Part shown: one piece after another, positions 25,630-42,040 of the stretch
How positions within the stretch are numbered: position 1 is the first letter of the stretch
Layout: each line of letters opens with the position of its first letter
Assembly (NCBI GenBank): GCA_028281285.1
Contig: JANQKF010000033.1
Span: 1 to 64,000 of the forward strand
Origin: Cyclobacteriaceae bacterium
GTDB lineage: Bacteria > Bacteroidota > Bacteroidia > Cytophagales > Cyclobacteriaceae
DNA length: 64,000 nt
Direction: 5' to 3'
Translations under genes and position numbers: made by a program
Notes under the pieces: model-generated
What the model was told of the DNA's origin: nothing
What the model saw: the letters and a program-made list of their open reading frames with translations, nothing else
Database searches by the model: none

Positions 25630-26460
25630 TTATTTGTTTTGATTATAGCTGTGGTTTCGAACAATCTCCGTAGCTCTAAAAATGACAACAATTTCCAGTA
25701 TCTCAGCCGGGATAAGAATGAAGGGAGATATAAACGATAGAATCACTGTGATGGAGAACATCCCAGCAATGATTTCGACTGCACCTGCCAACTTGGACAC
25801 TCTGCCAAGGGCTCCACTAAATCGAGTAAGTGCATAACCATAAATCATTCCCATGGCCCCCAGGACAACGGAGTAGACCAATATCACAAACTCGAGTTCG
25901 ATTTCTGGATTGTAGATGGAATAAACGTCAAACCCAATCACAGCAATATGAGCGATCACAAGCACCATGGTAATCATTTTGAGTAGGTAGTTTTCAAAAA
26001 GGGAGCCGATAATGACAAATCCGCGCTGGAAAAGGACAAAGGCGATCAATAACCCGACCTTGACGTAGACATATCCCTGAGGAGTGAATAAGTCCTCATC
26101 CATAAATCGGGAGTATTCTGCAATACCTTCAAAAAACCTAAGCACGAAATAGATAATACCAAAGACCCAGGCAGTGTTGAGGTACTTGATCATCGAACGA
26201 TTCGATCCATCCGATTCAATCATGAACATCCTTTCCAACCAGGAAGAGCGATCGATTGGCTCAATCTCTACTTGATTTAAATCGTAGTTGAGTGCCCCAA
26301 ATATAGTTTTTACAGTGTAGTCCCTGGGTGTGACTTCGCCTGCCTCTATCCGCTGAATGGTCCTCACACTGATGTTACATTTTTCCACCAGTTCTTCCTG
26401 GGTCAGCATTTGAGATTTTCTCAATTCAGCAATTTTCTTTCCTAGTTCCGGCTGTTTCAT
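25630..26460 (-). CDS. XRE-family regulator with a membrane-spanning C-terminal domain
   Basis: A 276-residue protein with an N-terminal helix-turn-helix (residues about 6-60: LGKKIAELRKSQMLTQEELV, then SVRTIQRIEAGEVTPRDYTV) and about five or six hydrophobic helices from residue 110 to near the end. The DNA-binding domain is therefore tethered to the inner membrane. I start at the ATG at 26458-26460: a longer reading frame to 26529 would overlap the upstream gene by 53 bp and adds a non-conserved leader. It follows the Ntn hydrolase gene by 16 bp and is likely co-transcribed with it. The ligand of the membrane part is unknown. Confidence 0.8.
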   Translation of the reverse strand: MKQPELGKKIAELRKSQMLTQEELVEKCNISVRTIQRIEAGEVTPRDYTVKTIFGALNYDLNQVEIEPIDRSSWLERMFMIESDGSNRSMIKYLNTAWVFGIIYFVLRFFEGIAEYSRFMDEDLFTPQGYVYVKVGLLIAFVLFQRGFVIIGSLFENYLLKMITMVLVIAHIAVIGFDVYSIYNPEIELEFVILVYSVVLGAMGMIYGYALTRFSGALGRVSKLAGAVEIIAGMFSITVILSFISPFILIPAEILEIVVIFRATEIVRNHSYNQNK

Positions 26461-26476
26461 GATAGCATCTCTTGTC

Positions 26477-27622
26477 TTATTGACCAGATTTTTTCTTCCA
26501 GGCTGTGAATGACCAGTATCCATTCTCATGCATTTTGAGAGTCATCTCCTTTGTGTCAAACTCAATGGTGACCCTTTCTTCTGGTAGGTAAAATACATTT
26601 TTTGACCACGGAAATAAAGGGAAGCTCATTCCATCCACAAAAGTCACTTGAATACCTTGATTTACCGCTTTGATGGTGATTTCACCTGTAGCTGAATTGT
26701 TATATGTCCCGGCAAATTCATTTAGTAGATCATAGCTAAGCTCAACTGTCGAGGGTTCGACCCATTCTTCTTTTCTTTTATCACTCACCAACTCGTTTAA
26801 CTTGCTGAAAGAGTAAGAGCGTTGCCCTTTTGCCAATAGATTTTTGATAGTTGTATTTACAATCATTCCCGGATCGTGCTTAGAGAAGAACCAGACTTCG
26901 CCAGTCGTCAAATTCTGAACATTAGAATACATGGTCCCACCATTTTTTTGAGCGGTTTGTTCACAGATATCAGTCATCGTTTTGAGACTGGCACCATGTG
27001 TATCGAGAAGTTGGGTGGCCAATGGATATCGCCAGCAGTAGGAGCCATCCTCGTTTCCACAAATGTCGAAGTTGGTTGATACCAGGTGTTCACCCTTTTC
27101 GACCAGTTCAATTCCGGAAGCAGAGATGATTGCAAACCTACCATGCTTGTCCGATACATGCATTTGGGCGCTCCGGAAGCCATTCATAAACCAGTAAGTC
27201 TCAAAGAATTTGAGGACCTCCTCTACGGAGCTCATCTCTCCAAGAAGATGGGTGAGTATGGCGTCATTCCCATCAGGATAAGCCTTTTTGCTATTCGGAT
27301 CAAAGTCTTGCACATAACTGATCGCATTAAAATCGAACGTGAGTCCCGCTTCATTCATACCTCCCTGGATATTGGCTCCCTGTCCATACCTGGGCGATAA
27401 ATAGGAGAGGGTGTAATAACCGTACCTGGCATTTCCAGACTTTGGAAAAACATTGATAAAGTTGGCTACACCAAACGGACCGTCTTCATTATTGGCAGTC
27501 CAGACCTGTCCATTTTTTCCAATAGCGCTCACAATGGTACAAGCATCGCAGAATGAAGGAGTAAATGCCAGACAGATTAAAATGACAAATTGAGTAATTG
27601 ATTTTGGGCTTTTAGATTTCAT
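26477..27622 (-). CDS. Penicillin V acylase/choloylglycine hydrolase-like Ntn hydrolase
   Basis: A 381-residue secreted amidase. A signal peptide ends SFCDA so that cleavage before Cys28 would expose the N-terminal nucleophile (CTIVSAIGKNG), the defining feature of this Ntn family. The next landmarks also fit: TANNEDGPFG, GMNEAGLTFDFNAI and STNFDICGN. The C-terminal 80 residues (FAGTYNNSATGEITIKAVNQ) resemble the beta domain often appended to Bacteroidota hydrolases. It should cleave a linear or bile-acid-type amide in the periplasm or outside; substrate unknown. I start at the ATG at 27620-27622, directly ahead of MKSKSPKSI; an upstream in-frame ATG at 27724 would spoil the signal peptide. 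Confidence 0.82.
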   Translation of the reverse strand: MKSKSPKSITQFVILICLAFTPSFCDACTIVSAIGKNGQVWTANNEDGPFGVANFINVFPKSGNARYGYYTLSYLSPRYGQGANIQGGMNEAGLTFDFNAISYVQDFDPNSKKAYPDGNDAILTHLLGEMSSVEEVLKFFETYWFMNGFRSAQMHVSDKHGRFAIISASGIELVEKGEHLVSTNFDICGNEDGSYCWRYPLATQLLDTHGASLKTMTDICEQTAQKNGGTMYSNVQNLTTGEVWFFSKHDPGMIVNTTIKNLLAKGQRSYSFSKLNELVSDKRKEEWVEPSTVELSYDLLNEFAGTYNNSATGEITIKAVNQGIQVTFVDGMSFPLFPWSKNVFYLPEERVTIEFDTKEMTLKMHENGYWSFTAWKKKSGQ

Positions 27623-27813
27623 AACCGTATTGTTTTTGCTTTGGTGAATTTTTGACTTATGCAATATCATCTCAGCATACGGCCTTAGCCAAATTTTGTC
27701 GGACATTTGACCCGACATTCGCACGTCATTTCATCAAATCCGGTTTTTTGGCGGTTTTGTGTGGGATTGGACTTCTGACAAATAGGGGAGTATACAATTA
27801 GAACTTACATCGG

Positions 27814-28323
27814 CTAGTTCTTGTCAACGGCACTGATCAAAACTCTTGTGGCATATTGTTCTCGCGAAAACGTTCGGATCAGAACAATGCTTGGATGCTT
27901 GTAGTCATTGAGCCTGGAACCTATATCGTCTTTGTGAACCAATGTCATGTGCCAGCCCGACCGAATTGTATTGACCGTGTACATTCCATCCATGCAGTCG
28001 TTCATTTTCTTGATAAGTGCGTTGAAGTTCTCTACTGCTTCCTCCTTCGTTGCACCTCCATCTACCATCAAAGTGAGCTCGGCTTTCTTTGATATAGGAC
28101 TGGAATTGGGAGTTACTTCGAGGCTTTGCTGAAGTGTGCTAATGAAGCTCTGTTTATAGGCATATTTATCTCCTGTTTTTCCTGCTCCTTGCTTTTCACC
28201 ACGATGCTCCAGGAAGTCATTTGCCCCGTCCTTCATCACTGATTTGAAGACATCACAGTTGAAGTCTTGTCCTTGTGAGATGAAGGCTGAAGAAAGTAAT
28301 AAGAGTGTCAGTAGTTTTCTCAT
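27814..28323 (-). CDS. Small secreted protein of unknown function
   Basis: A 169-residue protein with a signal peptide (residues 1-18, LLTLLLLSSAFISQGQ). I do not recognise the mature part. It has two cysteines (CDVFKSV near residue 22 and MNDCMDG near 108) that could form a disulfide, an amphipathic middle (KEEAVENFNALIKKMNDCM) and a beta-rich end (WHMTLVHKDDI, HPSIVLIRTF). The start chosen is the ATG at 28321-28323; the frame extends upstream to 28419 without a signal sequence. No operon partner is evident. Confidence 0.6.
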   Translation of the reverse strand: MRKLLTLLLLSSAFISQGQDFNCDVFKSVMKDGANDFLEHRGEKQGAGKTGDKYAYKQSFISTLQQSLEVTPNSSPISKKAELTLMVDGGATKEEAVENFNALIKKMNDCMDGMYTVNTIRSGWHMTLVHKDDIGSRLNDYKHPSIVLIRTFSREQYATRVLISAVDKN

Positions 28324-28442
28324 GCTTGGATATTGTAAACCTCGAACTATTAATAATCTGTCAGATGTACCAAGCAGAAATGTTATGGATTGTTGAAATG
28401 AAAATTCTATGACCCTCATGAAGATTATGTCAGAACAATAGA

Positions 28443-29561
28443 TTATTGAAGACTTTTTAGCTTTAGAATCAAGTCACGCGAGGCCCTTCCTAAATTGGTC
28501 TTACCTCGGTTATAGTTGCGCATAAGTATTACTCCATATTGACTCTCTTTGTCAAACGCCATATAGCAATTGTAACCAGCGACCGATCCACCGTGTCCGG
28601 CAGTTGAAATTTGGTCGTCCTTAAATAATGAAAGACCATAGCCATAATTGTTTTCCGGGGTCTGACCATTGAGCATGGCAGACAGGCTCTTTTGATTTAA
28701 TAATGTACCATAGCCCATAATGGCATTCATAAACTTCATCAAATCATCAGGAGTCGCATAAATACCCCCATTCGGTACTTTGTAACCACGACCAGAATGT
28801 TCTCTTGAGGCAAGACCATGCACCTGACCTTTCCCATTACTTTGCATGCCAATTGCCAATTCTGGTATCTTGTTCTCGGGTACAATGAAAAAGCTGTTGG
28901 TCATATTCAACGGCTTGAAGATCTTCTCTTCAACTAATTGCATAAATGACTTCTCTGCAGCCCTGGAAAGCGCCAGCCCCAACATTCCAAACCCGATATT
29001 GGAATAGCTATAAGCTTGGTCCATGCCCGTTTTGAAAGATGTTTTGGGAATAGACTCCAAGATCTTTTCTTCCCATTGCTCAATCGTGCCTGCAGCCGCA
29101 TTCCGCAAATTCGGTTCCCGAATCAGCCCCGAGGTGTGACTGGCAAGATGGTGGAAGGTGATTTTTGTAGTGTCAGAATATCCTTCAAGCCCTTTGATTT
29201 CGGGGAGGTATTTTTCTACCGGGTCATTCAGTTGAATGATTCCTTCCTCTGCTAATTGCATCATCAGAAAGGCCGTAAACGTTTTTGATATGGAACCTGT
29301 CCGGTAGATGTGGGAGGAATTGGCTTTTATATTGTTCTCGGAGTCTGCAAGGCCATAAGCACCTGACCATAAGAGATTATCTCCCTTCAGAATGGTGATC
29401 GAAATGCTACCGTTGTTTTTATCCTCTTCTACTTCCTTATTGATTTGACTGCGGAATTCACTGATTACTTCATCAATATCTTTCTGTGATTGCGCATAGG
29501 TGGCAATGGAGAAGAGTCCAATGAATAGGGCGGAGATTGTGATAGAAAGAATTCTTTTCAT
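28443..29561 (-). CDS. Serine hydrolase, beta-lactamase class C family
   Basis: A 372-residue secreted enzyme of the beta-lactamase/penicillin-binding-protein-like family. The signal peptide is residues 1-23 (ending ATYAQ). The catalytic motifs are SxxK (Ser90-Lys93 in RTGSISKTFTAF), YxN (YSYSNIGFGMLG) and HxG (TAGHGGSVAGYN). Such proteins in Bacteroidota are mostly esterases or D-amino-acid peptidases, and the HGG in place of KTG argues against a true beta-lactamase. I start at the ATG at 29559-29561, which gives a proper signal peptide; the frame continues 13 codons upstream. Confidence 0.85.
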   Translation of the reverse strand: MKRILSITISALFIGLFSIATYAQSQKDIDEVISEFRSQINKEVEEDKNNGSISITILKGDNLLWSGAYGLADSENNIKANSSHIYRTGSISKTFTAFLMMQLAEEGIIQLNDPVEKYLPEIKGLEGYSDTTKITFHHLASHTSGLIREPNLRNAAAGTIEQWEEKILESIPKTSFKTGMDQAYSYSNIGFGMLGLALSRAAEKSFMQLVEEKIFKPLNMTNSFFIVPENKIPELAIGMQSNGKGQVHGLASREHSGRGYKVPNGGIYATPDDLMKFMNAIMGYGTLLNQKSLSAMLNGQTPENNYGYGLSLFKDDQISTAGHGGSVAGYNCYMAFDKESQYGVILMRNYNRGKTNLGRASRDLILKLKSLQ

Positions 29562-29760
29562 TGCTGAATGGTCTGTATCCTGTATATCGTTTAAAAACAA
29601 GAACTCAAGTTAAATTAAAAAGAAAAGATCAGCTACTAAAGGTGATTTATGCTTCTGGCATTTTAAGTTGGTTAGGAAATTATAACAAAAGGATAATTCG
29701 AAATCGTTAGCAGCGTCATATTTCTTTAGTAAATCGAAGTACCATAAATCAACCTTAACC

Positions 29761-31428
29761 ATGAAATACCTTACCACACTTTTGTTGATCCTTGTCTGCC
29801 TTTCTGCTTGTCAGGAATCAGAATCTACTGCCACTCGACTTCCCCATAGCATAAAAGCCGAAGCGGGTGAAGAACAGGCCAAAGGATTTGTGTTTCACGA
29901 CCGTAATGAGAATCGCCAAAAAGATGATTCCGAACCGGGAATCGCAGGTGTGGCTGTTTCTAACGGGACCGATATTGTGCACACCAATGATGAAGGGGCT
30001 TATGAGTTACCAGTCTCTGATGATGCCATCGTCTTTGTGGTAAAGCCAAAAGACTGGATGACTCCGGTCAACGAACACTTTCTCCCTCAATTCTACTACT
30101 TACACAAGCCCAATGGCTATCCTGACAACTATAGATATAAAGCCACCGCCCCCACAGGACCACTTCCTGAAACCATCAATTTTCCGTTGTATCCTGAAGA
30201 TGGCTCCCCGGATTTCAAAATGGTGGTTTTTGGTGATCCCCAGCCGTATAACATCGATCAGGTCGACTTTTTTGCCGAGGATATTGTCACCGAGTTGATT
30301 GGAAGAACGGACCTGGAATTCGGAATTACCATGGGAGATATTGTAGGGGATGACCTGGAATTATTCTCCCCACTCAATCAGGCCGTTTCGAAAATTGGAA
30401 TTCCATGGCACAATGTCCTTGGAAATCATGATATCAATTATATGGCTCCGAATGATCGGATGTCTTCTGCGACTTATGAGAGCGTCTATGGTCCGGCCAC
30501 TTATGCTTTCGTTTATGGCGATGTACATTTCATCGTGGTAGACAATGTGATCCATAAGGATGAAGTTGGTTCGAGGAGCTATGTGGGTGGACTGCGACCT
30601 GATCAGTTTGAATTTGTATCAAACTACCTGGAGACGGTTTCCAAAGAAGATCTGGTGGTAATCAACATGCATATCCCACTTGCTCAGCATGGAGAAAGCT
30701 TCCGAAAAAGCGATCAAAAGCAGTTGTTTGATCTGTTAAAGGATTTCCCGAATTCGCTTTCGATTTCAGCACATTCACATGTTCAGGAGAATAAACTCTT
30801 CCATAAGGATTCCTCTGATTGGCAGCGGGAGGTACCACATCACCACTTCAACGTGGGTACCACCTCCGGCAGCTGGTGGAACGGAATGCGCAATGAAAAT
30901 GATGTTCCCCATACTATGATGCGTGATGGTACACCTAATGGATATTCCTTTATCACTTTTAAAGGAGCTGAATACATTATCGATTGGAAAGTAGCTGGTA
31001 GCCCGGATAATCACCGGATGAAAATCCATGTGCCACGGGGCATAAAGGCCAATTCGACTGATACTACCTTGCTGACGGTGAACTTCTTTAATGGGAGCGA
31101 GGAGTCAGAATTGTCCTATCGGATCAAAGGGCAAACTGATTGGAAACCCATGGAAAAAGTGTTGAAACCGGACCCTTATTATGCTCTACTGGGTAAAAGA
31201 TGGGAGAAGTTTAGAAAGATTGATTTTAGAGCCAAATGGGCTGCTGATACTACGGTTGACTTGGCTCAAATTGGGGTTTTGCCAAGACCTGTAAATAGTT
31301 CGCACCTCTGGGAAGCGAATATTGGCACCGATTGGCCTGCCGGCAGACATATTATTGAGGTAAAAGCTAAAGACCGCTATGGCCAAACCTTTACGGCTTA
31401 TCATATGATGAGGGTAGTGGAGGAATAG
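29761..31428 (+). CDS. Calcineurin-like metallophosphoesterase lipoprotein
   Basis: A 555-residue lipoprotein (lipobox LVCLSAC near residue 16). Residues about 40-110 are an N-terminal beta domain (KGFVFHDRNENRQKDDSEPG) known from this subfamily, residues about 150-370 the phosphoesterase core, and the rest a C-terminal beta domain. Metal-ligand motifs are VVFGDPQ (Asp159), MGDIVGDD, LGNHDINY, NMHIPL and SAHSHVQE, so both metals should be bound. It acts outside the cytoplasm on an unknown phosphoester or pyrophosphate. Its last 13 codons (TFTAYHMMRVVEE) are repeated downstream at 32097 and in part at 35888, which suggests its 3' end is an integration site. Confidence 0.88.
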   Translation: MKYLTTLLLILVCLSACQESESTATRLPHSIKAEAGEEQAKGFVFHDRNENRQKDDSEPGIAGVAVSNGTDIVHTNDEGAYELPVSDDAIVFVVKPKDWMTPVNEHFLPQFYYLHKPNGYPDNYRYKATAPTGPLPETINFPLYPEDGSPDFKMVVFGDPQPYNIDQVDFFAEDIVTELIGRTDLEFGITMGDIVGDDLELFSPLNQAVSKIGIPWHNVLGNHDINYMAPNDRMSSATYESVYGPATYAFVYGDVHFIVVDNVIHKDEVGSRSYVGGLRPDQFEFVSNYLETVSKEDLVVINMHIPLAQHGESFRKSDQKQLFDLLKDFPNSLSISAHSHVQENKLFHKDSSDWQREVPHHHFNVGTTSGSWWNGMRNENDVPHTMMRDGTPNGYSFITFKGAEYIIDWKVAGSPDNHRMKIHVPRGIKANSTDTTLLTVNFFNGSEESELSYRIKGQTDWKPMEKVLKPDPYYALLGKRWEKFRKIDFRAKWAADTTVDLAQIGVLPRPVNSSHLWEANIGTDWPAGRHIIEVKAKDRYGQTFTAYHMMRVVEE

Positions 31429-31431
31429 CGA
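31384..31431 (+). repeat. Attachment-like repeat, copy 1 (3' end of the phosphoesterase gene)
   Basis: Covers the last 45 bases of the coding sequence and 3 bases beyond. The most conserved part is TATCATATGATGAGGGTAG followed by TGGAGGAATAG. Copy 2 matches over about 48 bases apart from a 2-base insertion and a few substitutions. Confidence 0.6.
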
Positions 31432-31446
31432 ACAGTCTCGACCATG

Positions 31447-31469
31447 AATTCGTAGCGCAGCTATGAATT
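31447..31469. repeat. Hairpin after the phosphoesterase gene
   Basis: AATTCGTAGC (31447-31456) pairs with GCTATGAATT (31460-31469) around a three-base loop with one G-T wobble. It starts 19 bp after the stop codon. There is no T-run behind it, so it may be a REP-like hairpin or mRNA-end stabiliser rather than an intrinsic terminator. Confidence 0.45.
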
Positions 31470-31575
31470 ATAGCCAATTTTGTGCCTGGTAGTGATAAAA
31501 ATCATAAAAAACCCCAGTTACAAGGGATACATTTAATTGTTGCCAATTAAGTCTAACATTTGAGTAGTTAAATAC

Positions 31576-31959
31576 ATGTTGAAATTTATTCTGGCCTGGT
31601 TCCCCATGATTTTTATCGCAATTGCCAATGGGTTATTTCGCGAGAGAATTCTAACAAGTCGTTTAACTGAGCTTCAAGCACATCAGGTATCTACTGCGAC
31701 TATGATTGTGCTATTAAGTATTTACGTTTGGATATTATTTAAGATATGGCTTCCGACATCGGCCAATCAGGCCATAATTATAGGTTTAATATGGCTTGTC
31801 TTGACTATAGTTTTTGAGTTTTTATTTGGTCATTATGTTGCAGGACATTCATGGGATAGACTTCTACAGGATTATAACGTTTTAAAAGGACGAGTTTGGG
31901 TTTTGGTTCTTATTTGGATATCGATTGCACCATTTATAATCCATAGATTACAAAAATAG
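31576..31959 (+). CDS. Small four-helix membrane protein of unknown function
   Basis: A 127-residue hydrophobic protein with about four membrane helices (near 2-20, 42-60, 66-86 and 106-122) and a short amphipathic loop, GHYVAGHSWDRLLQDYNVLK, between the last two. I do not recognise the family with certainty. It lies alone between copies 1 and 2 of the attachment-like repeat and so appears to be cargo of the putative integrated element. A spacer repeat (31984-32044) begins 24 bp after its stop. Confidence 0.65.
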   Translation: MLKFILAWFPMIFIAIANGLFRERILTSRLTELQAHQVSTATMIVLLSIYVWILFKIWLPTSANQAIIIGLIWLVLTIVFEFLFGHYVAGHSWDRLLQDYNVLKGRVWVLVLIWISIAPFIIHRLQK

Positions 31960-31983
31960 ATACATTGTTTAGCTATTGGGCAC

Positions 31984-32044
31984 AACTATTGGTTATAAGC
32001 CCGTTAACCAGACATATTGGAATGAATACAGGAATGTATAATCT
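31984..32044 (+). repeat. Dispersed spacer repeat M, copy 1
   Basis: Begins AACTATTGGTTATAAGC, then CCGTTAACCAG. Its second half (32004-32042) matches 35676-35714 at about 32 of 39 positions by eye. Both copies lie shortly upstream of an attachment-like repeat. The rest of 31960-32260 holds copy 2 of that repeat and a hairpin, with no gene. Confidence 0.55.
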
Positions 32045-32096
32045 GTTTTTTTACTTTATTTCAACCCAATTCTATCAGCAAGACATCCTTCAAGAG

Positions 32097-32146
32097 CAAA
32101 CCTTTACCGCCCCTATCATATGATGAGGGTAGTGGAAGAGTAACGA
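32097..32146 (+). repeat. Attachment-like repeat, copy 2
   Basis: Starts CAAACCTTTACCGC and continues TATCATATGATGAGGGTAG, TGGAAGAGTAACGA. It is a nearly exact, out-of-context copy of the last codons of the phosphoesterase gene (31384-31431), with a 2-base insertion after CCGC. No gene body precedes it, so it is a 3'-end copy only. Confidence 0.6.
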
Positions 32147-32177
32147 TCTGTGTATAAAAAACGTAGGGCTTTCGGAG

Positions 32178-32224
32178 AGCTTCACTGTCCACCGAGACGA
32201 ACCTTAGCTACGAACAGTGAAGCT
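32178..32224. repeat. Long-loop inverted repeat downstream of the AbiEii gene
   Basis: AGCTTCACTGT (32178-32188) and ACAGTGAAGCT (32214-32224) are perfect 11-bp complements around a 25-base loop. On the minus strand a run of six T (32155-32160) follows some 17 bases after the stem, so it could act as an atypical terminator for the AbiE operon, or be a recombination-site hairpin. Confidence 0.4.
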
Positions 32225-32260
32225 TCGTCAATACTTCTTTGAAATTGTCTTTCGTTATCA

Positions 32261-33064
32261 TCAGAGTTCTAGTTTTTTAAGGTGTCGCATCACTTCTCTT
32301 TGCACAGTTTCAAAATCTGGCAAATCTCGAATTTGGTCTGACATAGATCTTTGCCAACGTCCTTGATATTGAGGCAGTCGTTGATCTAGCTTTTCATGAA
32401 ATCCTTCGTGATCAATAGCCTTACTTTCACATTTTGCTTTGAATTCATTCACATAAAAAGTCACATCCATTTCATGCATCTCTAGTAGATACCATATATC
32501 GTAAAAGTCCCTGGCTTGCATCCGCTGTATTATTGATCTTAGCTTTTCAACAAGCACTTCTTCAAGAGGGTAGCAAAGTAATTGATGGTCTTCTTGATCT
32601 GAATATCCAAGGTATGCGTTCTGCAACGAAGGCTCGAATTGTAATACCTCGCTTCTTGAAATATCTACTTTGACTCGCTTATTTGCCCCAATCCCTCCGA
32701 GAGGGCCTACATAACTGATATAAAAATTTATTCCGCCATCTTCATGTTCATTATTATCGATTATTTCAAGTGGAATATTAGCCTCATCACGTATGTTCTC
32801 AAATACTTCTACAAACCATTCAAAGATTTGATCATTTGATATTTCATTGTCGAGAAGAGTGAAATCAAGATCCTCGGAAAATCTATAGTCTTCAAAATAG
32901 ATCTTCTTCATGACGGTTCCTCCTTTGAAGACAATAGAATTTGAAAGCTGCTCATGTTGGGCAATTCCCTGTAATATCCATGACAGGATATAGTCCTTCT
33001 CAATCTGCTGATCTCTTACACCAACTTCTCGTGCTTTGTTTTGTATTTCTCCAGGTCTTATCAT
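32261..33064 (-). CDS. AbiEii-family nucleotidyltransferase toxin
   Basis: A 267-residue protein of the AbiEii/AbiGii toxin family. The nucleotidyltransferase fold shows the GGT motif (residues 48-50, IVFKGGTVMKKIYF) and the paired acidic residues in RFSEDLDFTL (Asp65, Asp67). Characterised members of type IV AbiE systems transfer nucleotides to tRNA and arrest growth, giving phage resistance by abortive infection or acting as a toxin. It overlaps the antitoxin gene by 4 bp (ATGA) and is second in the operon, the usual order. It sits inside the putative integrated element. Confidence 0.9.
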   Translation of the reverse strand: MIRPGEIQNKAREVGVRDQQIEKDYILSWILQGIAQHEQLSNSIVFKGGTVMKKIYFEDYRFSEDLDFTLLDNEISNDQIFEWFVEVFENIRDEANIPLEIIDNNEHEDGGINFYISYVGPLGGIGANKRVKVDISRSEVLQFEPSLQNAYLGYSDQEDHQLLCYPLEEVLVEKLRSIIQRMQARDFYDIWYLLEMHEMDVTFYVNEFKAKCESKAIDHEGFHEKLDQRLPQYQGRWQRSMSDQIRDLPDFETVQREVMRHLKKLEL

Positions 33065-33882
33065 GTATAGATGGCAGATTTAATGGTTTCAGTTTCTAGG
33101 TTTTGCTGGATGCTCCAGCGGCTTAACATTTTGCCTGATTTTGGAAGTTCAGTATCGAGAAGAACATACGAAGCTGTTTTAGCATTCTGTAGATGTTTTG
33201 TAATAGTTGACTTAATTTCAAGAGATTCTAGAAGGAAGCCCAATCTTTTTATTACTGCCTGCGAATTGAATCGCTGAGTATATTCAAGAAGTTTATCATA
33301 TTTGAGTTTGTCTCGTGATATGTGGATTGCTCTTGCAATTTCCACGATACCACCAGCATAGTCAGGTTTGAACAGGCAGTCGATGAATGTTTTTTCCAAG
33401 TCTGAGCACATTACCTTATTAAAGCTGTCAATCCATATTTTTTTGGAACCAAAGAAGTGTTTTTCGTTGTGGTAAATGAATTGAAAATCCACATCCTTTA
33501 TTGTGATTTTCGAGGGTCGGATTTGTTTATCAACTACAACTTGTTCTTTTAGTGAAGGCTGGGTGATTAGGTTATGAATCTGCAAAGCTGAGTAGTAACC
33601 GACATAGTGGTTGACATCCTTCGCTAGATGACCGGCAACAATGTGCCAATCAGGCATAAATGTGTCAGGATCTTTTTCAAATGGAATAATATAATAAAGT
33701 CCTTTTTTCAAGCGCATCAATAAACCGCGCTTAACCATATCACTAAGCAACTCTTTTAAGGCACTTTCACTTGATTGTGGCAATACGTTTATTGCGTCTG
33801 CATATGCAAAACAATCTTTACCTATTTGATTGAAATAGGTCAAAACTTGGTTGGATTGAGTTGATATGTTTTTTCTTTTCAT
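33061..33882 (-). CDS. AbiEi-family antitoxin and transcriptional repressor
   Basis: A 273-residue partner of the AbiEii toxin. The N-terminal part is a winged helix (residues about 10-75: ESALKELLSDMVKRGLLMRL, KKGLYYIIPFEK) and the rest is the AbiEi C-terminal domain (YVGYYSALQIHNLITQPS, KVMCSDLEKTFIDCLF). Family members repress their own promoter through inverted repeats and neutralise the toxin without needing to bind it. Two matching palindromes lie just upstream (33891-33909 and 33958-33976), which supports autoregulation. Confidence 0.88.
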   Translation of the reverse strand: MKRKNISTQSNQVLTYFNQIGKDCFAYADAINVLPQSSESALKELLSDMVKRGLLMRLKKGLYYIIPFEKDPDTFMPDWHIVAGHLAKDVNHYVGYYSALQIHNLITQPSLKEQVVVDKQIRPSKITIKDVDFQFIYHNEKHFFGSKKIWIDSFNKVMCSDLEKTFIDCLFKPDYAGGIVEIARAIHISRDKLKYDKLLEYTQRFNSQAVIKRLGFLLESLEIKSTITKHLQNAKTASYVLLDTELPKSGKMLSRWSIQQNLETETIKSAIYT

Positions 33883-33890
33883 AGTTTAAA

Positions 33891-33976
33891 AGTCAGCTTT
33901 AAACTGACTACAATGATATGAAAAGTAATTTGTCTTAACTATGTTTTAAAGTAAAAAAGTCAGTTTAAAGCTGATT
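33891..33976. promoter_or_regulatory. Paired palindromic operator upstream of the AbiE operon
   Basis: Site 1 (33891-33909) reads AGTCAGCTTTAAACTGACT and site 2 (33958-33976) reads AGTCAGTTTAAAGCTGATT. Each is a palindrome with 6-base arms AGTCAG/CTGACT around a TTTAAA core, and site 2 is site 1 inverted with one arm mismatch. Their centres are 67 bp apart, suitable for cooperative binding by the AbiEi repressor; site 1 is only 9 bp from the start codon. The remaining spacer to 34254 holds no gene or clear signal that I can see. Confidence 0.6.
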
Positions 33977-34254
33977 TAATTGATACGAAACATAATTTCG
34001 AATTGTATTCATGGGAAGGTTTTGGTTTTTTCAGGGTTTGTATTGCGGTGGTAAAAACCAAATGTGCTTAAATGTGCGGTAGATCTATGTCATGGTATGA
34101 ACGGCCCCGGCTAAGAAACGTGCGGGTTTTGGAACTTGTATATGTTAACCGAGTACTGAGTTTTATTATGTATCTAATGTTCATCTTACTTCATTAACTA
34201 GCATATTTTCTTAGCTGATGTTGGAGCCAGTTAATTCCCTTGAAACGAAAATTG

Positions 34255-35004
34255 TTATCCTTCGTTTTGTATTGGATTCCACCATGAAAACAAATATTGT
34301 AGAGCTCGTAGCTCAGTATGAATAATATTGTCGGCAAAAATGGCGAAGGAAAAATCAGTTCTATCTTCAATTGATAGCGAGTTCATATAATTTGATGGGT
34401 TGGATCTTAATTCCTTTTCATCCAAGTTGTATTTTTTTGCAATTTGATATGCAGTCTCCAAGTATTTACCACTTTGATCATTGAGTTGACTAGCTAGTTG
34501 CCTGAAGTCTTGGGAGGAGTAGTTTGGCAGCATTTGTATCTTAGGGCGTAAGTGATTCATAAACCAAGGAACCAAATTGTATGTTAATGGATCAGCTAAT
34601 TTTGTTTCATTGCAGAATTTTTGGAGAAAACCAGACTCTGCCCATATTTGGGTTTGATTGCTAAGGATATGCCTACCTACTTCATCAGATTTTAAGAATT
34701 TGAGGATAAACTCTCCAATTTTTTCAATGTCTTTGGCTTCTTCTTTTGACAATACAAATACATAGTCGGGAGCCCTATTATAGTCGGGTTCACCATAAAC
34801 TTTTCGGATTACTAATGCTAAGACTATACCCACAACTATTGGCCACCATATGACATAATAAAAGCTAGCTACTCCTCCAAGCAAATAACTCAATCCACCA
34901 AGAGTTATCCCCTTATGATCAAACCCTTTGAGTATTGCTGATAAAAAAACAAATGCACCAAATAGGCCTGTTAATCCTGCAATTATTTTGAGAATAATCT
35001 CCAT
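34255..35004 (-). CDS. Membrane-anchored protein of unknown function
   Basis: A 249-residue protein with two or three membrane helices in the first 68 residues (IILKIIAGLTGLFGAFVFL; LGGVASFYYVIWWPIVVGIV) and a soluble, mostly helical domain of about 170 residues. That domain has no motif I recognise; notable stretches are VLSKEEAKDIEKIGEFILKF and a C-terminal aromatic cluster (LRALQYLFSWWNPIQ). It lies within the accessory island between the AbiE pair and another unknown gene, in the same orientation, with separate spacers on both sides. A role in the island is possible but unsupported. Confidence 0.55.
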   Translation of the reverse strand: MEIILKIIAGLTGLFGAFVFLSAILKGFDHKGITLGGLSYLLGGVASFYYVIWWPIVVGIVLALVIRKVYGEPDYNRAPDYVFVLSKEEAKDIEKIGEFILKFLKSDEVGRHILSNQTQIWAESGFLQKFCNETKLADPLTYNLVPWFMNHLRPKIQMLPNYSSQDFRQLASQLNDQSGKYLETAYQIAKKYNLDEKELRSNPSNYMNSLSIEDRTDFSFAIFADNIIHTELRALQYLFSWWNPIQNEG

Positions 35005-35185
35005 GTCATTTTTAATTGGCTACAACGTCCAGTTACGATGAGAGAGGATTAGGAAGCACTAATCTCCCGTCTCGCACATAGCCACTCCTTGATTTAAATT
35101 TATTGCTTGTGGCGGACTTTCCAATCCATACGAAAATATCCTGACAGACAAAACCCCATTCATTCATAACATCTGTTAGCTGGCA

Positions 35186-35599
35186 TCATTCTTCGTCTTC
35201 AATCTCTATTGTTGTTAGACGATCTCTCATATGGTTGATTGCAAGAAAATCAAATCGCTTAATGTATTTCCCAAGTGTTGAGTACGGAATGTAAATAGTC
35301 CTTGATGTTACAGAAATTATTCCAGCGTTCGAAATAACCTCTTGTTCAATATCATCAAAGGTTTGTCCGTACTTCTCTCGGTCAGCAAGTAGTACCTTGA
35401 ATCCGACTTGATCTTGTTGACCAACTCCTTGGATTGTGAATTCTGAAAGCCCAAAGCCAACAACAAAGAATTTTTCCATATCAATTCCGTTATCTTCACA
35501 GAGTTTGAAAATGTCAGTTCCGCTATGTGCGTCTATTTCAATTGTTCCTTTGTAATCGTGATATTGAGTTCCTACGTGTTCGTCTAAAAGTTCTTCCAT
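35186..35599 (-). CDS. Small acidic soluble protein of unknown function
   Basis: A 137-residue acidic protein with no signal peptide or membrane helix. It alternates short strands and helices (VVGFGLSEFTIQGVG; IISVTSRTIYIPYSTLGKYI) and ends in an acidic tail IEIEDEE. I do not recognise it. Spacer motifs flank it on both sides: CTGTTAGCTGGC shortly after the stop and GCCAGCTAATTACTGGTTA before the start, parts of which are mutually complementary. That arrangement marks it as a one-gene module of the island. Confidence 0.55.
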   Translation of the reverse strand: MEELLDEHVGTQYHDYKGTIEIDAHSGTDIFKLCEDNGIDMEKFFVVGFGLSEFTIQGVGQQDQVGFKVLLADREKYGQTFDDIEQEVISNAGIISVTSRTIYIPYSTLGKYIKRFDFLAINHMRDRLTTIEIEDEE

Positions 35600-35648
35600 T
35601 TTAAGTTCTTGGTTGAGGGTTCAAATATGTGTGGCGAATATGCCAGCT

Positions 35649-35714
35649 AATTACTGGTTATGGGGTATATGCCTATTAACCAGATATAAAGGAATGAATA
35701 TAGAAATATATCAT
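35649..35714 (+). repeat. Dispersed spacer repeat M, copy 2
   Basis: Begins AATTACTGGTTATG and contains TTAACCAGATATAAAGG. The second half corresponds to 32004-32042. It ends 27 bp before the integrase remnant, just as copy 1 precedes copy 2 of the attachment-like repeat. Confidence 0.55.
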
Positions 35715-35740
35715 GAATAAATTGCTATATTCCATATATC

Positions 35741-35920
35741 ATGAGTGTACCTGATTTTGTGAAAATACTGAAGATTAAACGGTATAGTCGGAATACTATC
35801 AATAGCTATGCTTCAATAGTTAAATTGGCACGGCTACATTTCAGAAAGCCTCTTGAACTTATTTCTGAGTCGGAGTTGCACCAGTTCTTTTATCATATGA
35901 AAAGGGTGGAGGAGGAGTAA
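35741..35920 (+). pseudogene. Tyrosine recombinase (integrase) N-terminal remnant
   Basis: A 59-codon frame whose product reads like the SAM-like core-binding domain of XerC/D-type integrases: FVKILKIKRYSRNTINSYAS, then a helix and ELISESELHQFFYHM. The catalytic domain with the R-H-R-Y residues is missing entirely; after HM the frame runs at once into KRVEEE and a stop. Those last 30 bases match the end of the phosphoesterase gene (YHMMRVVEE, stop), so the truncation point coincides with the third attachment-like repeat. It is a remnant, not a working recombinase. Confidence 0.6.
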
Positions 35921-35923
35921 CCG
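35888..35923 (+). repeat. Attachment-like repeat, copy 3
   Basis: TTATCATATGA is identical to copy 1 and the following AAAGGGTGGAGGAGGAGTAA matches at about 14 of 20 positions. It forms the tail of the integrase remnant. Confidence 0.5.
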
Positions 35924-35934
35924 TTTGGCCTTGG

Positions 35935-36408
35935 CTATTTCTCGTACTCGATTTTATTAATTCTCCAGATGAAGTCGCCAGCGCTAGTCTTCACTATTAC
36001 CTCATCACCTACTTTTTTCTTTTCCAATGCCTTGGCCATGGGGGAGTCTGTTGAAATGTAATCTTTCATGCCGATCAACTCTTCATAACCCACAATGCGC
36101 AGTCGTTTCTTGAGTCCTTTGTCATTTTCAATTTCTACCCAGGCGCCAAACATAACTTTGCCTTCCTGGTGAGGATGATAGCCGATGACTTTGAAATTAT
36201 CGATACATCTTCGGAGATAGAGTAGACGTCTGTCTATCTCTCGAAGACGTTTTTTATTGTAATGGTAATCGGCATTTTCCGACCGGTCACCCAAACTCGC
36301 TGCCCATGAAACTTTCTTTGTAATCTCGGGCCGTTCTACTCGCCAAAGGTGATTCAGTTCGTCCTTAAGTCTTTCCATCCCTTTCGGGGTGATCCATGGA
36401 GTTCTCAT
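35935..36408 (-). CDS. greB: GreB-type transcription elongation factor
   Basis: A 157-residue factor that rescues backtracked RNA polymerase by promoting cleavage of the nascent RNA. The N-terminal coiled coil carries the acidic tip residues Asp41 and Glu44 in SWAASLGDRSENADY, and the C-terminal FKBP-like domain has GKVMFGAWVEIENDKGLKK and DYISTDSPMAKAL. From memory this is strikingly close to the enterobacterial GreB (same length, long identical blocks such as the acidic-tip region and NKKRLREIDRR), closer than to typical Bacteroidota GreA. I start at the ATG at 36406-36408; the longer frame to 36453 adds a non-conserved leader. The gene borders the accessory island, and acquisition by transfer is plausible. 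Confidence 0.9.
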   Translation of the reverse strand: MRTPWITPKGMERLKDELNHLWRVERPEITKKVSWAASLGDRSENADYHYNKKRLREIDRRLLYLRRCIDNFKVIGYHPHQEGKVMFGAWVEIENDKGLKKRLRIVGYEELIGMKDYISTDSPMAKALEKKKVGDEVIVKTSAGDFIWRINKIEYEK

Positions 36409-36611
36409 TTCGTTGATAAAAAAACCTGTCCGTTGAAAATTGATCCGGTACAAATATAATTGTCCTTGATATGGGTTTTGAACTTCCTAAAGACTTTCCA
36501 GGGTTCGTAGAAGATTGATAAAGTCAGGACATATAGTCGGTTATAGTCCAGCGATAATTGGTTATTACACCCAGTTTTCACCGGACTAAAAACACTTAAA
36601 TTCGCTTCAGA

Positions 36612-37091
36612 CTATTGCTCATCAATAAAAGCCGTATACATCCAGACTGATTTTTCTTGTTCACTGATATAATCGCTCATGAGTGAGTTTGTGCCTTCAT
36701 CATCCGTGTCACCTGAAAGTCGAAGTAACTCACGTTCTAACGGAAGAATGACTTGATAAGCCTTTAGTATCTGCTTTACCGCTACTCTTCCTTGTGAGAC
36801 ATCACTTGCTTCTTTTACAGCTGACATGGCAATGAAGTCCGAATATCTGTGAATTGGAGTAAACCCCAATGTTAGAATCCGCTCTGCTATTTCATCAATT
36901 TTCTCCTGTAGATTATTATAAACCTCTTCAAATTTTGAGTGCAACTCAAAGAATTGTTCCCCTCTAATGTTCCAATGAAAACCTCTGGCATTCATGTAGA
37001 ATATCTCATAGTTTGCTAACAATGTATTGAGTTTATCAGCAATGTCTTTCGAAGATACTATGTCTAATCCGATTTGATTTAATCCATTCAT
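36612..37091 (-). CDS. dps: Dps-family ferritin-like DNA-protection protein
   Basis: A 159-residue dodecameric mini-ferritin that oxidises Fe(II) with peroxide and stores iron. The ferroxidase ligands are in the family spacing: His39 (RGFHWNIRG), His51 (FFELHSKFEE), Asp66 and Glu70 (LQEKIDEIAERI). No Lys-rich DNA-binding tail is present, so direct DNA binding is doubtful. It is divergent from oxyR across an 89-bp spacer with a palindrome, consistent with peroxide-induced expression. Confidence 0.93.
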   Translation of the reverse strand: MNGLNQIGLDIVSSKDIADKLNTLLANYEIFYMNARGFHWNIRGEQFFELHSKFEEVYNNLQEKIDEIAERILTLGFTPIHRYSDFIAMSAVKEASDVSQGRVAVKQILKAYQVILPLERELLRLSGDTDDEGTNSLMSDYISEQEKSVWMYTAFIDEQ

Positions 37092-37137
37092 TTCTCTCTG
37101 CTTTATTTTAATTCAAAGGTCTTAGTTTGTAACTTAT

Positions 37138-37152
37138 TTATCAAATTGATAA
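37138..37152. promoter_or_regulatory. Candidate OxyR operator between dps and oxyR
   Basis: TTATCAAATTGATAA is a perfect 15-base palindrome that contains the LysR-type T-N11-A pattern. It lies 29 bp before oxyR and 47 bp before dps, suited to dual control of the divergent pair. Confidence 0.5.
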
Positions 37153-37180
37153 TTTAGTATTAGTTATTAATAAAATCAAT

Positions 37181-38110
37181 ATGACCCTACAACAACTCCA
37201 ATACGTTGTGGCTTTACATACTCACAAGCATTTCGTTAAAGCCGCTGAAAGTTGTTTTGTAACCCAACCCACCTTAACTCTTCAGCTAAAGAAGCTAGAA
37301 GAAGAGATATCAGCCGTTCTTTTTGACAGATCACGGCAGCCATTAGAAGCCACGCCTGTCGGAGAGTTATTTGTTTCGAAAGCAAAAAGGATTTTATGGG
37401 AAGTAGATGAGCTGAAAAAGTCTGTTAATGATGACAAGGATCAAATGGATGGAAGTTTTAAAGTAGGTATAATCCCTACATTGGCTCCAAACCTGTTGGC
37501 CTTGTTTATCTCGGACTTTATTGGCAGCCATCCAAAAACCAAATTGATTATCGAAGAGCTTCAGAGTGAGAGAATCATCGAGTTAATCAATAACAAAGAA
37601 CTTGATCTTGGTATTCTTTCAGCTCCCTTAAATGAACCCAAGATTAGAGAAATACCGCTTTTTAACGAACCCTTTTTAGTTTTTTCAGATAAGGACAATG
37701 AGATGCTCTTAAATAAAACGATCACTCAGCAACAGTTACGATCTGATGGTCTTTGGATATTAAAAAAAGGACATTGCTTTAGGAATCAGACTTTAAATAT
37801 TTGTGATTTTGATCTGTCTGAGCAACATAAAAATGTAACGATGGAAGGAGCTAGTATTGATACTTTGAAAAAACTGATTCGAGAAGTCAATGGTTATACC
37901 TTAATACCTGAACTTTCCTATGATAAGCGCATAGATTCTGAAAATGTGATTCCCTTCGAAGATCCAAAACCTGTCAGATCCATTTGCCTGGCAGTTCACA
38001 AACATTTTACCAAGGAACGACTGATCAATGAACTCCAAAAGTCTATTCTGGCGCATGTTCCCGATTCATTCGAGAAGAATACTAAGATCAGGAAGGTAAA
38101 ATGGAGGTGA
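37181..38110 (+). CDS. oxyR: OxyR-type LysR hydrogen-peroxide regulator
   Basis: A 309-residue LysR-family protein with an N-terminal winged helix (LQQLQYVVALHTHKHFVKAA, VTQPTLTLQLKKLEEE) and a periplasmic-binding-like regulatory domain. The redox pair is present at exactly the E. coli OxyR numbering: Cys199 and Cys208 in GHCFRNQTLNICDFD. Oxidation to a disulfide would switch on targets such as the divergent dps gene. The start ATG at 37181 follows the AT-rich shared promoter. The 38127-38153 stretch after the gene can form an 8-bp hairpin without a T-run. Confidence 0.94.
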   Translation: MTLQQLQYVVALHTHKHFVKAAESCFVTQPTLTLQLKKLEEEISAVLFDRSRQPLEATPVGELFVSKAKRILWEVDELKKSVNDDKDQMDGSFKVGIIPTLAPNLLALFISDFIGSHPKTKLIIEELQSERIIELINNKELDLGILSAPLNEPKIREIPLFNEPFLVFSDKDNEMLLNKTITQQQLRSDGLWILKKGHCFRNQTLNICDFDLSEQHKNVTMEGASIDTLKKLIREVNGYTLIPELSYDKRIDSENVIPFEDPKPVRSICLAVHKHFTKERLINELQKSILAHVPDSFEKNTKIRKVKWR

Positions 38111-38184
38111 CCAAATTTCATTGGGATTGTTGAATTATTGTCTATTTCAACAAGGAGGTGTCTGACTCTGGGCTTTACTAATAA

Positions 38185-40803
38185 TCACTCATCTCGAAGA
38201 CAATCCGCGGGATTAGCAAGTGCAGCTTTGATAGACTGGCCACCAACAGTCATCAACGCCAATGTCAATGCGGCTAAACCAACGACAAGAAAGGTAAGCC
38301 AATCGATATCGACCCGATAGGCATAATTCTCCAACCAATCTTGCATTGAAAACCAGGCAATGGGTATGGCGATCAGAAAACCTCCAACAATTAACTTCAT
38401 GAAATTTCCGGATATCAGAATGAGGATATTGGAGATTGAAGCCCCAAGAACTTTACGGATTCCAATCTCTTTGACTTTTTGATGTGCATTGAGTGCAGCG
38501 AGTCCATATAGGCCCAACGAGGCAATGATAATTGTCAACAAACTCAAAGAACTGAACAGCTTTGCCTTCTTCTGTTCACTTTCATAAAGTCGATTGATAC
38601 GATCGTCCATGAACTGGAAACTGACCGGATAATCGCTATACTTTTTTAGTGATTTATCCAGGAATTCAAGCAATTCCGGCATATTTTGAGCGTGCGCCTT
38701 GACAGAGATGAATTGAAAATAGCTTTTTGTCTCAATCAACATGGGGCTGATCTTTAAGTGTAAGCCATGCATGTGAAAATCTTTCACCACACCAATGATT
38801 GTGCGATATCTGCTAGGGGGTGAGTCATCTGTCAAAATTTTGCCTACTGCTTCATCCGGACTGAGCCCCAGCGCCTTTGCCGCAGATTCATTAATGAGGC
38901 ATTCAGGTTTTTTGCCTTGTTGTAGTGTTGGAGGTAGGGACCTTCCCGCCAGCAGTTCCAGCCCGAATAGTTCTAAAAAATCACGATCTGCCCGCAATCT
39001 GTAAATAGCCAGGTCATCATTTGGGTCACCACCTTTGTCATCATTAACCACCGTTCCGGATTGGATGTTGTGAGGTAGATCTTGTGAAGTGCCCACTTGA
39101 ATTATATCAGGGTTAGTCAGCCATTCTTCTTTAATCACATCAAAATTTTTGATGATTTCCCTATCCAGTACCTCCAACGTGAGAATTTGTTCCTTTTCGA
39201 AGCCCAAGTCCTTCTGACTTATAAAATTGAATTGTTGATTTATGATCAGCGTACAGATGACCATGGCTATAGAAACCGCATACTGAAATACCACTAACCA
39301 TTTTTGAGTACCCCTGCCCTGGACGGTATCATGAGATTTTCCTTTGATAATGTCTATCGTTGAGGGTGAAGAAATCACCAAAGCGGGATAGATGCCAGCG
39401 AAAAAGCCGAGTAATAAAACCGCTCCGGCCAGAGTTAGCACAAGGTCGAGGTTGTTTGAGAGGTTCAACTCCAATTGTCGGTCTAATACGGCCCCGAAAG
39501 ATGGAAGCAAGGAAGATGCAATCACCAAAGAAATGACGAACGCCACTGCAGCCAATAACTCTGACTCGAGTAAGAATTGAAAGATCAATTGCTTTCGATT
39601 GGCGCCAAAAGATTTTCGTACACCTACTTCTTTGAACCGTATCATTGACCGGGCGATGGAGAGATTAACGTAATTGATACCTGCCAATATGAGAATCAGC
39701 AGAGACACGGCAATGAATAGATAGATTTGCTGTTCGCTTCCTTTTACGCCAAAATCATTGTTGATATTGGCATTCAGGTGCATATCCCTAAAAGGCTGTA
39801 GCAGATAGTCAAAATCAAAAGGGCGGTCTTTCGTCCAGTAGTGATCTATTAAGTCACTCATTTTTTGTTGCAGCAAGTCAGGATTCGCAGAAGGGTTCAA
39901 GGAGAAAAAAGTATAATAATTGCTGCCGTCCCACTTTTTCTTTTTGAACTCACTCAGGTACCTGCTATCATCCTGAAGGTTGGTAATAAAGGCAAACTGA
40001 AATGTGGCATTTACAGGCGGGTCTTCTACAATGCCTGTAATTTGGTGGGGTTTCTCCTGGTAGACCAAAGACTTGCCAATGGCCTCACCATTGGGAAAAA
40101 TCTTTGACGCTAAAGATGCTGTTAAAACAATGCTTCTCGGATTTTGAAAGACAGTTTGAGCGTCCCCTTCAATAAACTCAGGATGCGAAAACAACTTAAA
40201 GAATGTCGGATCTGTAAATAGCCCTTTTTCATACCAGTGATTGTCCTGCTCGTAAGTAAGGAGTGCCTTGTCCTGAGCAATTGTGGTGGCGTGCTCCACT
40301 TCGGGGTAGTCAGTCATCAAGGTAGAGGCGAGTTGTGCAGGTGTCACTGCATAATAGCTTGAACCCAGGTAGACATCATCGGGAGAGTATTCATATACAT
40401 GATAAATGTTGTCCACATTATCATAAAAACCATCAAAGGATCGCTCGTGGGACACAAAGACTGAAATCAAAATGAAACAGGTGATACCAATGACCAGGCC
40501 AGCAACATTAAAAAGGCTATACAGTTTTTGCCTCATGATATTCCGCCAACTGACCTTGAAATAGTTGGATAACAGGCTGGTCTGAATAATTCTGGAACCG
40601 AAACTCAAATGCTTTATCATGGACGGTCTGAAAAGGAGTAATATTTCTTTGAACAGAAGTCGGTCGGCTTTTCTTTTTCCGTGTAGTTGGACATTGCGTT
40701 CATAAAATTCCAACAAGTCACCTTCTATATCTTTATGATATGCTGGTCGGCAAAACCACTTCAGGAAACGCAGGAGCAATAGGGGAGGCTTTGAAGAACT
40801 CAT
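38185..40803 (-). CDS. FtsX-like ABC transporter permease
   Basis: An 872-residue permease. It starts with an 80-residue cytoplasmic prefix (PLLLLRFLKWFCRPAYHKDI, GDLLEFYERN) typical of the Bacteroidota permeases paired with PadR. Then come a membrane helix, a MacB-like periplasmic domain, an FtsX block of three helices (near 380-530, with IRFKEVGVRKSFGANRKQLI), a second periplasmic domain and a second FtsX block at the end (VKEIGIRKVLGASISNILIL). The ATPase partner is not encoded here. I start at the ATG at 40801-40803, one base after the padR stop. Likely an efflux or lipid/peptide stress transporter under PadR control. Confidence 0.9.
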   Translation of the reverse strand: MSSSKPPLLLLRFLKWFCRPAYHKDIEGDLLEFYERNVQLHGKRKADRLLFKEILLLFRPSMIKHLSFGSRIIQTSLLSNYFKVSWRNIMRQKLYSLFNVAGLVIGITCFILISVFVSHERSFDGFYDNVDNIYHVYEYSPDDVYLGSSYYAVTPAQLASTLMTDYPEVEHATTIAQDKALLTYEQDNHWYEKGLFTDPTFFKLFSHPEFIEGDAQTVFQNPRSIVLTASLASKIFPNGEAIGKSLVYQEKPHQITGIVEDPPVNATFQFAFITNLQDDSRYLSEFKKKKWDGSNYYTFFSLNPSANPDLLQQKMSDLIDHYWTKDRPFDFDYLLQPFRDMHLNANINNDFGVKGSEQQIYLFIAVSLLILILAGINYVNLSIARSMIRFKEVGVRKSFGANRKQLIFQFLLESELLAAVAFVISLVIASSLLPSFGAVLDRQLELNLSNNLDLVLTLAGAVLLLGFFAGIYPALVISSPSTIDIIKGKSHDTVQGRGTQKWLVVFQYAVSIAMVICTLIINQQFNFISQKDLGFEKEQILTLEVLDREIIKNFDVIKEEWLTNPDIIQVGTSQDLPHNIQSGTVVNDDKGGDPNDDLAIYRLRADRDFLELFGLELLAGRSLPPTLQQGKKPECLINESAAKALGLSPDEAVGKILTDDSPPSRYRTIIGVVKDFHMHGLHLKISPMLIETKSYFQFISVKAHAQNMPELLEFLDKSLKKYSDYPVSFQFMDDRINRLYESEQKKAKLFSSLSLLTIIIASLGLYGLAALNAHQKVKEIGIRKVLGASISNILILISGNFMKLIVGGFLIAIPIAWFSMQDWLENYAYRVDIDWLTFLVVGLAALTLALMTVGGQSIKAALANPADCLRDE

Positions 40804-40804
40804 T

Positions 40805-41137: not shown

Positions 41138-41143
41138 ATTCAA

Positions 41144-41952: not shown

Positions 41953-42040
41953 GGTTAACTGGCTATAAGCAGCGACCGGTAATTAGTTTGTGTGGAGAAG
42001 TTGGTCAAAAGTTCCGAGAAATGAAAAGGCCATTCCAAGT

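Follow-up and report, generated by a model that had tools for sequence, protein, structure and literature searches.

A probable decayed integron of a Bacteroidia type between a phosphoesterase gene and greB in a member of the Cyclobacteriaceae

The window analysed here is a stretch of 64,000 nucleotides from a Cyclobacteriaceae bacterium (assembly GCA_028281285.1, contig JANQKF010000033.1, positions 1 to 64,000 of the forward strand), and the element in question lies at 31433-35899, between the host gene for a calcineurin-like phosphoesterase, hereafter P, and greB. As a preliminary description had claimed from the sequence of the window, this region holds the decayed remains of a tyrosine-recombinase element, arranged as tandem units, two in number, at the 3' end of P, with an integrase remnant fused to a copy of the P end; we argue that it was probably a chromosomal integron. 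The host genes, the P-end copies and the remnant are listed first.

29761-31428, plus strand: P, host gene for a calcineurin-like phosphoesterase of 555 amino acids (Pfam MetallophosC/N, Metallophos)
31384-31431, plus strand: P-end copy 1, the gene's own end
32043-32096: stretch of 54 bp between the first attI and copy 2, the place expected for an integrase gene
32097-32146, plus strand: P-end copy 2, 86% identical to copy 1
35741-35899, plus strand: integrase remnant, codons 1-53
35890-35923, plus strand: P-end copy 3, beginning at the shared TTATCATATG
35935-36453, minus strand: greB, right-hand host flank (Pfam GreA_GreB), the neighbour of P in genome G009 too

Direct repeats of the P gene end are present at both borders of the region. 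Copy 2 does repeat copy 1, at 86% identity over 50 columns (31384-31431 against 32097-32146; E 7.3e-9 and 7.8e-9 in two comparisons), although the earlier wording, nearly exact over about 48 bases, was slightly too strong; a 66-base P-end query against the genome itself recovered it at E 2.1e-9, and its ungapped score of 27 was reached by none of 1000 shuffles (maximum 13). The weaker third copy, at the tail of the truncated integrase frame, aligns at 35891-35928 with 68% identity over 38 bases, and its best ungapped score in 35601-35960 (20) was equalled by none of 1000 dinucleotide shuffles (maximum 14). A second repeated block, which the preliminary description had not reported, pairs 31987-32042 with 35659-35714 (79% over 56 bases) and represents attI/integrase 5' regions. 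From these two repeat pairs it follows that the region is built of two units, each of which runs P end, cassettes, attI.

Orthologues of P (72-86%) are found in genomes G009, G007, G003 and G021. In G009 (locus L004; same genus), the stop codon of P is followed by ~30 bp and then by the 3' end of greB, which is the empty site that had been predicted, so that either the lineage of the window has gained ~4.5 kb or that of G009 has lost them. No second copy was found at E 0.01 for the P ends of G003 and G007, and the window contains no tRNA target.

The frame at 35741-35920 (59 codons) is a tyrosine recombinase N-terminus, as had been proposed. It matches Pfam Phage_int_SAM_4 (E 1e-4, 23.1 bits; curated cut-off 27) and NCBIfam NF040815 (E 7.9e-6, 25.6 bits; cut-off 220, a low score being expected of a fragment), and intact recombinases elsewhere open with the same N-terminus, the four measured being 275, 276, 277 and 285 amino acids long. 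Such intact relatives occur in Flammeovirgaceae UBA6059 (G075, G082), Cytophagales UBA9432 (G020) and Roseivirga sp. FE80 (G007; same genus), with further ones in Zobellia, Maribacter, Flagellimonas, Allomuricauda, Arenibacter and others among the matches listed, which cover at least 80 loci. At the codons where the remnant breaks off, six of 16 intact integrase relatives (L075, L076, L078, L079, L083 and L085) carry TATCATATG, and the P end carries TTATCATATG at 31398-31407; the fusion point is a stretch of 9-10 bp common to the P gene and these six relatives. Of the 21 bases after the shared sequence, 15 in the window equal the P end, whereas only 5 or 6 equal any of the six integrase genes; the likeness to the P end runs up to a stop codon, beyond which the greB flank begins. 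Because TATCATATG stands at the fusion codon in these six intact relatives, the fusion of integrase and P end is best read, from sequence, as a microhomology junction and not as an att site.

A fixed attP within the integrase gene, for which SSV-like splitting is the comparison, was considered and rejected as the main account: tblastn at 1e-3 gave N-terminal integrase matches only (window 26001-42000), and other remnants break elsewhere. Residues 1 to 28-37 alone are left in L018, the first 45-71 in L016, those up to residue 118, in two frames, in L025, and C-terminal pieces in L155; with breaks at such differing places, no fixed split site inside the integrase gene is seen.

The attachment sites and cassettes that lie between P and the remnant are these (bars in motifs mark the predicted cut).

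31430-31487, minus strand: attC4, predicted cut between 31433 and 31432
31433-31985, minus strand: cassette of unit 1 (predicted boundaries), its start agreeing with its own attC arm at 7/8
31576-31959, plus strand: frame of 127 amino acids in the unit 1 cassette, hydrophobic by eye, no Pfam family over cut-off
31978-32042, minus strand: attI of unit 1 (attI1) and former integrase 5' region, predicted cut between 31986 and 31985
32138-32262, minus strand: attC3, its end overlapping copy 2, with a relative in the genome's other array
32261-33064, minus strand: AbiEii-type toxin gene, cassette 3 (Pfam AbiEii 128 bits; PADLOC AbiEii 326 bits)
33061-33882, minus strand: AbiEi-type antitoxin gene, cassette 3 (PADLOC AbiEi 320 bits; NCBIfam TAA_AbiEi 36.6 bits, under cut-off)
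34094-34228, minus strand: attC2, predicted cut between 34102 and 34101, found by model R2
34255-35004, minus strand: frame of 249 amino acids, cassette 2, no family over cut-off
35018-35184, minus strand: attC1, predicted cut between 35026 and 35025
35186-35599, minus strand: frame of 137 amino acids, cassette 1, no known family in profile searches
35642-35714, minus strand: attI of unit 2 (attI2), predicted cut 35651|35650

Inspected by eye, both attI sites, ATAACCAATAG|TTGTGCC in unit 1 and ATAACCAGTAA|TTAGC in unit 2, resemble the motif that precedes intact integrase genes (CCAATAG|TT). The attC sites were sought with two models made from other genomes only: R1, built from 16 hand-picked sites at six loci, none from the window's genome and all picked by eye, so that their pairing is partly selected, and R2, built from the 42 matches of R1. 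The best unfiltered R1 match in the whole 64-kb window is attC4 (31430-31485, minus strand, 18.1 bits, E 0.036; runner-up 11.9 bits); R1 misses attC1 to attC3. With R2, attC2 ranks first in 28-40 kb (34096-34226, minus strand, 27.9 bits, E 2.9e-5) and 31430-31485 second (E 0.06). Similarity links the sites to other arrays as well: attC1 resembles two sites, neither of them a model match, of the array in genome G045 (L156), at 86% identity over 159 bases and 85% over 157, and a site in L063 at 83% over 154 bases; attC3 has a relative in the other array of the window's genome (L153, 14186-14315), an attC found by model, with 78% identity over 45 bases (E 0.001), and attC4 resembles another such attC, in L107, at 86% over 29 bases.

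The strongest test of the integron reading is closure, in which, as in integrons, the start of a cassette is complementary to the arm of its own attC at a G|TT boundary. In the window, closure gives the boundaries of three of the four cassettes (137-amino-acid frame 9/9, 249 7/8, 127 7/8). In other genomes, neighbouring attC sites formed 31 pairs, of which 10 agreed at 9/9, compared with 0.4% of between-locus pairs; where the two sites lay under 1.6 kb apart, 9 of 17 pairs reached this level. These counts come from 53 of 59 model matches (52 usable), training loci among them, and the closure bases fall partly in model columns that conserve TGCC/GGCA, a bias that the between-locus control shares.

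The AbiE pair noticed earlier is borne out by the profile matches to both genes, which by sequence resemble an AbiE type IV toxin-antitoxin system in that both are present and overlap, antitoxin first, but which, unlike the usual AbiE, are carried in an apparent integron cassette. Upstream of the AbiEi gene, 33877-33998 contains a pair of direct repeats of 55 bp (75%) as well as an inverted repeat of 20 nt (95%), possibly its operator. A search of 194 other genomes at 1e-8 found nothing similar to the 249-amino-acid protein, and the cassette proteins of the window had no homologues at 1e-4 among the loci compared.

The arrays of the relatives supply the background for these sites. With E up to 1, R1 matched 42 times in 39 loci (642 kb). 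Of these matches, 30 fall in the 33 loci outside training, spread over 13 of them, and all 30 point away from the integrase: 22 are upstream of it on the minus strand and 8 downstream on the plus strand (L101, L104 and L107). Covariation in the attC hairpin reached 0.317 against a shuffled mean of 0.065 (0/500), and the arms of the 42 matches hold 46 cells altered on both sides, both values coming from an alignment fitted to the structure. The control was not clean: 26 further loci (319 kb), made up of 7 loci of the P gene, 4 stretches that the integrase matched weakly and 15 lower-ranked integrase-relative loci, gave five matches at E up to 1. One was attC4 of the window itself (within L003), and L111, L113, L130 and L133, all four of them integrase-relative loci, had a single match apiece. 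A home-made AAC/GTT hairpin scan proved too strict, with 3 sites in three arrays and none in the window, and minimum-energy folds of candidate attC sites were uneven.

At many of the relatives' loci the genes upstream of the integrase are small, on the opposite strand and lead away from it; strands are mixed at L079, L086 and L088. Four such array genes of Roseivirga sp. FE80 gave, by Pfam, Barstar, NADase_transloc, SMI1/KNR4 (just below cut-off) and no family. On the single contig of G045, 10 of 11 attC matches lie on one strand within 22 kb, and a recombinase frame of 285 amino acids lies ~5 kb off. There (contig C1, ~2.247-2.275 Mb), as in L104 and L107, the integrase reads the same way as the attC sites, the inverse of the usual order. 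The window's own genome has a second run of small minus-strand genes (L153; contig C1 of G000, 222000-240000), with attC matches at 8071-8122 and 14186-14315 of L153 and no integrase match at 1e-3, which is probably another cassette array. In a UBA6059 cassette array (L028), a transposase of the IS110 family at 6599-7639 (Pfam DEDD_Tnp_IS110, Transposase_20) lies against the array direction; IS110-like insertion sequences that target attC occur in other integrons. Contig C1 of G140 carries seventeen matches to the integrase query, several identical in score, apparently a multicopy recombinase element of a related kind.

The intact integrases differ from integron integrases (IntI) in a consistent manner. 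The spacing from the catalytic lysine motif to HxxRH is 64 or 65 in 28 of the 31 relatives' rows that the pattern could score, against 106 in 6/6 IntI; by this spacing and by alignment to IntI4, the intact relatives examined are without ~42 residues that make up the I2, or additional-domain, region, and no helix occurs at model residues 181-196. This is a trait of the intact relatives, the window's own remnant being too short to cover the region. Four of them score 194-202 bits with TIGR02249 (IntI), below its curated cut-off of 265, and none of 16 genomes holds a canonical IntI above that cut-off. In a tree made by a quick method, with the root placed on IntI by choice, the 31 rows group together with a Shimodaira-Hasegawa-like approximate likelihood ratio (SH-aLRT) support of 92 and IntI stands apart with 100; the rows of L101, L107 and L108, assigned to the clade beforehand, fall outside the group of 31.

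These arrays bear on the proposal of the preliminary description that the element used the P 3' end as its att site, in which case two successive insertions would each have left a P-end copy and the cassettes would be mere cargo. Three P-end copies in the same orientation bound both units, an integrase or its 5' region adjoins copies 2 and 3, and G009 has the empty site; yet intact relatives of the remnant are linked to attI/attC arrays, the fusion lies at sequence that intact integrase genes carry themselves, and the P ends of G003 and G007 have no second copy at the threshold given above. The genes sit in cassettes bounded by attI/attC-like sites, and the integrase gene separates attI from the P-end copies. 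We regard an integrative element of this design as very improbable and the proposal as unsupported, while leaving room for some site-specific role of the P end.

Our reading of 31433-35899 is instead a chromosomal integron of a Bacteroidia type that has decayed and now lies as two units between P and greB, its P-end copies being scars of illegitimate recombination; we give this a probability of about 0.8. Of the traits of an integron, a tyrosine-recombinase gene beside attI is represented by the remnant and attI2 (the gene truncated, the attI called by eye), attC hairpins conserved in structure by the relatives, with attC2 and attC4 of the window found by model, and G|TT-bounded cassettes with closure by three of four in the window. 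In intact relatives, an XerA-like tyrosine recombinase of ~275-285 amino acids would insert circular cassettes at an attI (..CCARTAG|TTRGC) beside its own gene, each cassette with one hairpin attC, in an array that runs away from the integrase. Such an integrase would have moved the cassettes of the window, where unit 2 retains its first 53 codons, attI and three cassettes (137 amino acids, 249 amino acids and AbiEi-AbiEii), and unit 1 attI and one cassette. For the copies themselves, scarring by recombination is the most likely source. A donor lineage in which an integron adjoined P may have contributed DNA, by homologous exchange within P on the left and, on the right, by a joint at the shared TTATCATATG that left the integrase gene running into the P end of the recipient; one joint at the shared 9-10 bp would yield copy 3 in a single step, and copy 2 would stem from a second such event or from tandem duplication.

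Two other origins of the copies were weighed. In the first, unequal exchange would simply have duplicated the P end with its integron in tandem, after which decay and cassette turnover went on independently in the two units; the element is again an integron, and only the origin of the copies sets this account apart from the one just given. Both units are ordered P end, cassettes, attI, with attI blocks 79% and P ends 86% alike, but they have no cassette in common, and copy 3 with its greB flank requires a further event; we consider this possible, if rather unlikely. Alternatively, the integrase could have put cassettes repeatedly and directly into the P end at an attG-like secondary site (G|TT by the stop codon), the copies arising thereby. 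Both attC3 and attC4 end a few bases from a P stop codon. In Roseivirga sp. FE80 (L152; contig C59, 178000-196000) small minus-strand genes follow P in a run, the first two matching RibD_C and DUF2200 (Pfam), with an attC ~2.2 kb from the P end (E 5.4e-6), and the 3' side of P may be a recurrent location of integrons. However, the copies hold 30-50 bases of coding sequence, no attC was found in the first gap after P in that genome, and to our knowledge insertion by attC x attG alone produces no target duplication. Direct insertion is an unlikely origin, more doubtful than unequal exchange.

Several observations sit poorly with a decayed integron as we describe it. The integrase domain that usually identifies an integron is absent from the intact relatives, and 20 of the 33 held-out integrase loci have no model match, several of them ending at contig borders. 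In the window, attC1 and attC3 were found by neither model, the AbiE cassette fails closure (4/8), attI2 has A in place of G at the predicted cut, the 127-amino-acid frame of unit 1 opposes the array direction, and the 54 bp beside copy 2 are without explanation. Copies 1 and 2 have 6/8 post-stop bases in common, which makes the border between the host end and attC3/attC4 inexact. Beyond greB in G009 lies a diverged P-end-like piece (L004, 3840-3885; contig C44, 93813-93854; E 2.5e-4) that the integron account does not predict.

Like sedentary chromosomal integrons, the arrays have an integrase beside attI and cassettes that lead away from it, each with one attC, AAC...GTT ends and closure at G|TT; unlike theirs, the integrase of the intact relatives is ~42 residues shorter, I2 being absent. 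XerA-type recombinases (NCBIfam NF040815, 'site-specific tyrosine recombinase/integron integrase') are close as well, but a passage of PMC8138268 treats XerA as a chromosome-dimer resolvase, and the enzymes described here adjoin cassette arrays. Passages of PMC7790495 (eLife 2020) describe I2 as necessary for cassette capture, I2 and single-strand recombination as confined to integron integrases, and intermediates as lacking. The intact relatives nevertheless seem, to judge from their arrays, to collect genes although their enzyme is without the part thought necessary.

Integrons in Bacteroidota as such are already in print: parts of PMC8618304 and PMC9668308 count Bacteroidota among the integron-bearing phyla, and a part of PMC2426708 names the Bacteroidetes/Chlorobi group. 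In the passages available of PMC9024848 (IntegronFinder 2.0), few complete integrons are given near Bacteroidetes, the first survey having had only In0 there, and later one complete integron in Salinibacter ruber, besides those of Chlorobi and Ignavibacteriae. A passage of PMC9668308, a paper on archaeal integrons, states that IntegronFinder calls integrases by the overlap of two profiles, one for the IntI-specific domain. Since that profile is required, the program should pass over integrases without I2, and should miss the Bacteroidia lineage. By titles and abstract openings in the open-licence literature, we found no description of I2-less integron integrases with attC arrays in Bacteroidia, which is not proof of novelty.

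The wreck in the window is itself ordinary; the intact lineage behind it is not. Intact relatives with arrays span Flavobacteriaceae, Roseivirga and others, and on balance we lean towards the view that the Bacteroidia hold a widespread integron lineage of their own, whose integrase captures hairpin-attC cassettes without I2 and of which the window is a decayed member. If so, I2 would be no requirement for cassette capture, and the lineage would either supply the intermediates that are missing between Xer-like recombinases and IntI or mean that the integron was invented twice. If the lineage does function in the way its sequences suggest, marine Flavobacteria and Cytophagales would harbour a largely overlooked reservoir of mobile genes, and the role of I2 would be directly testable with natural enzymes.

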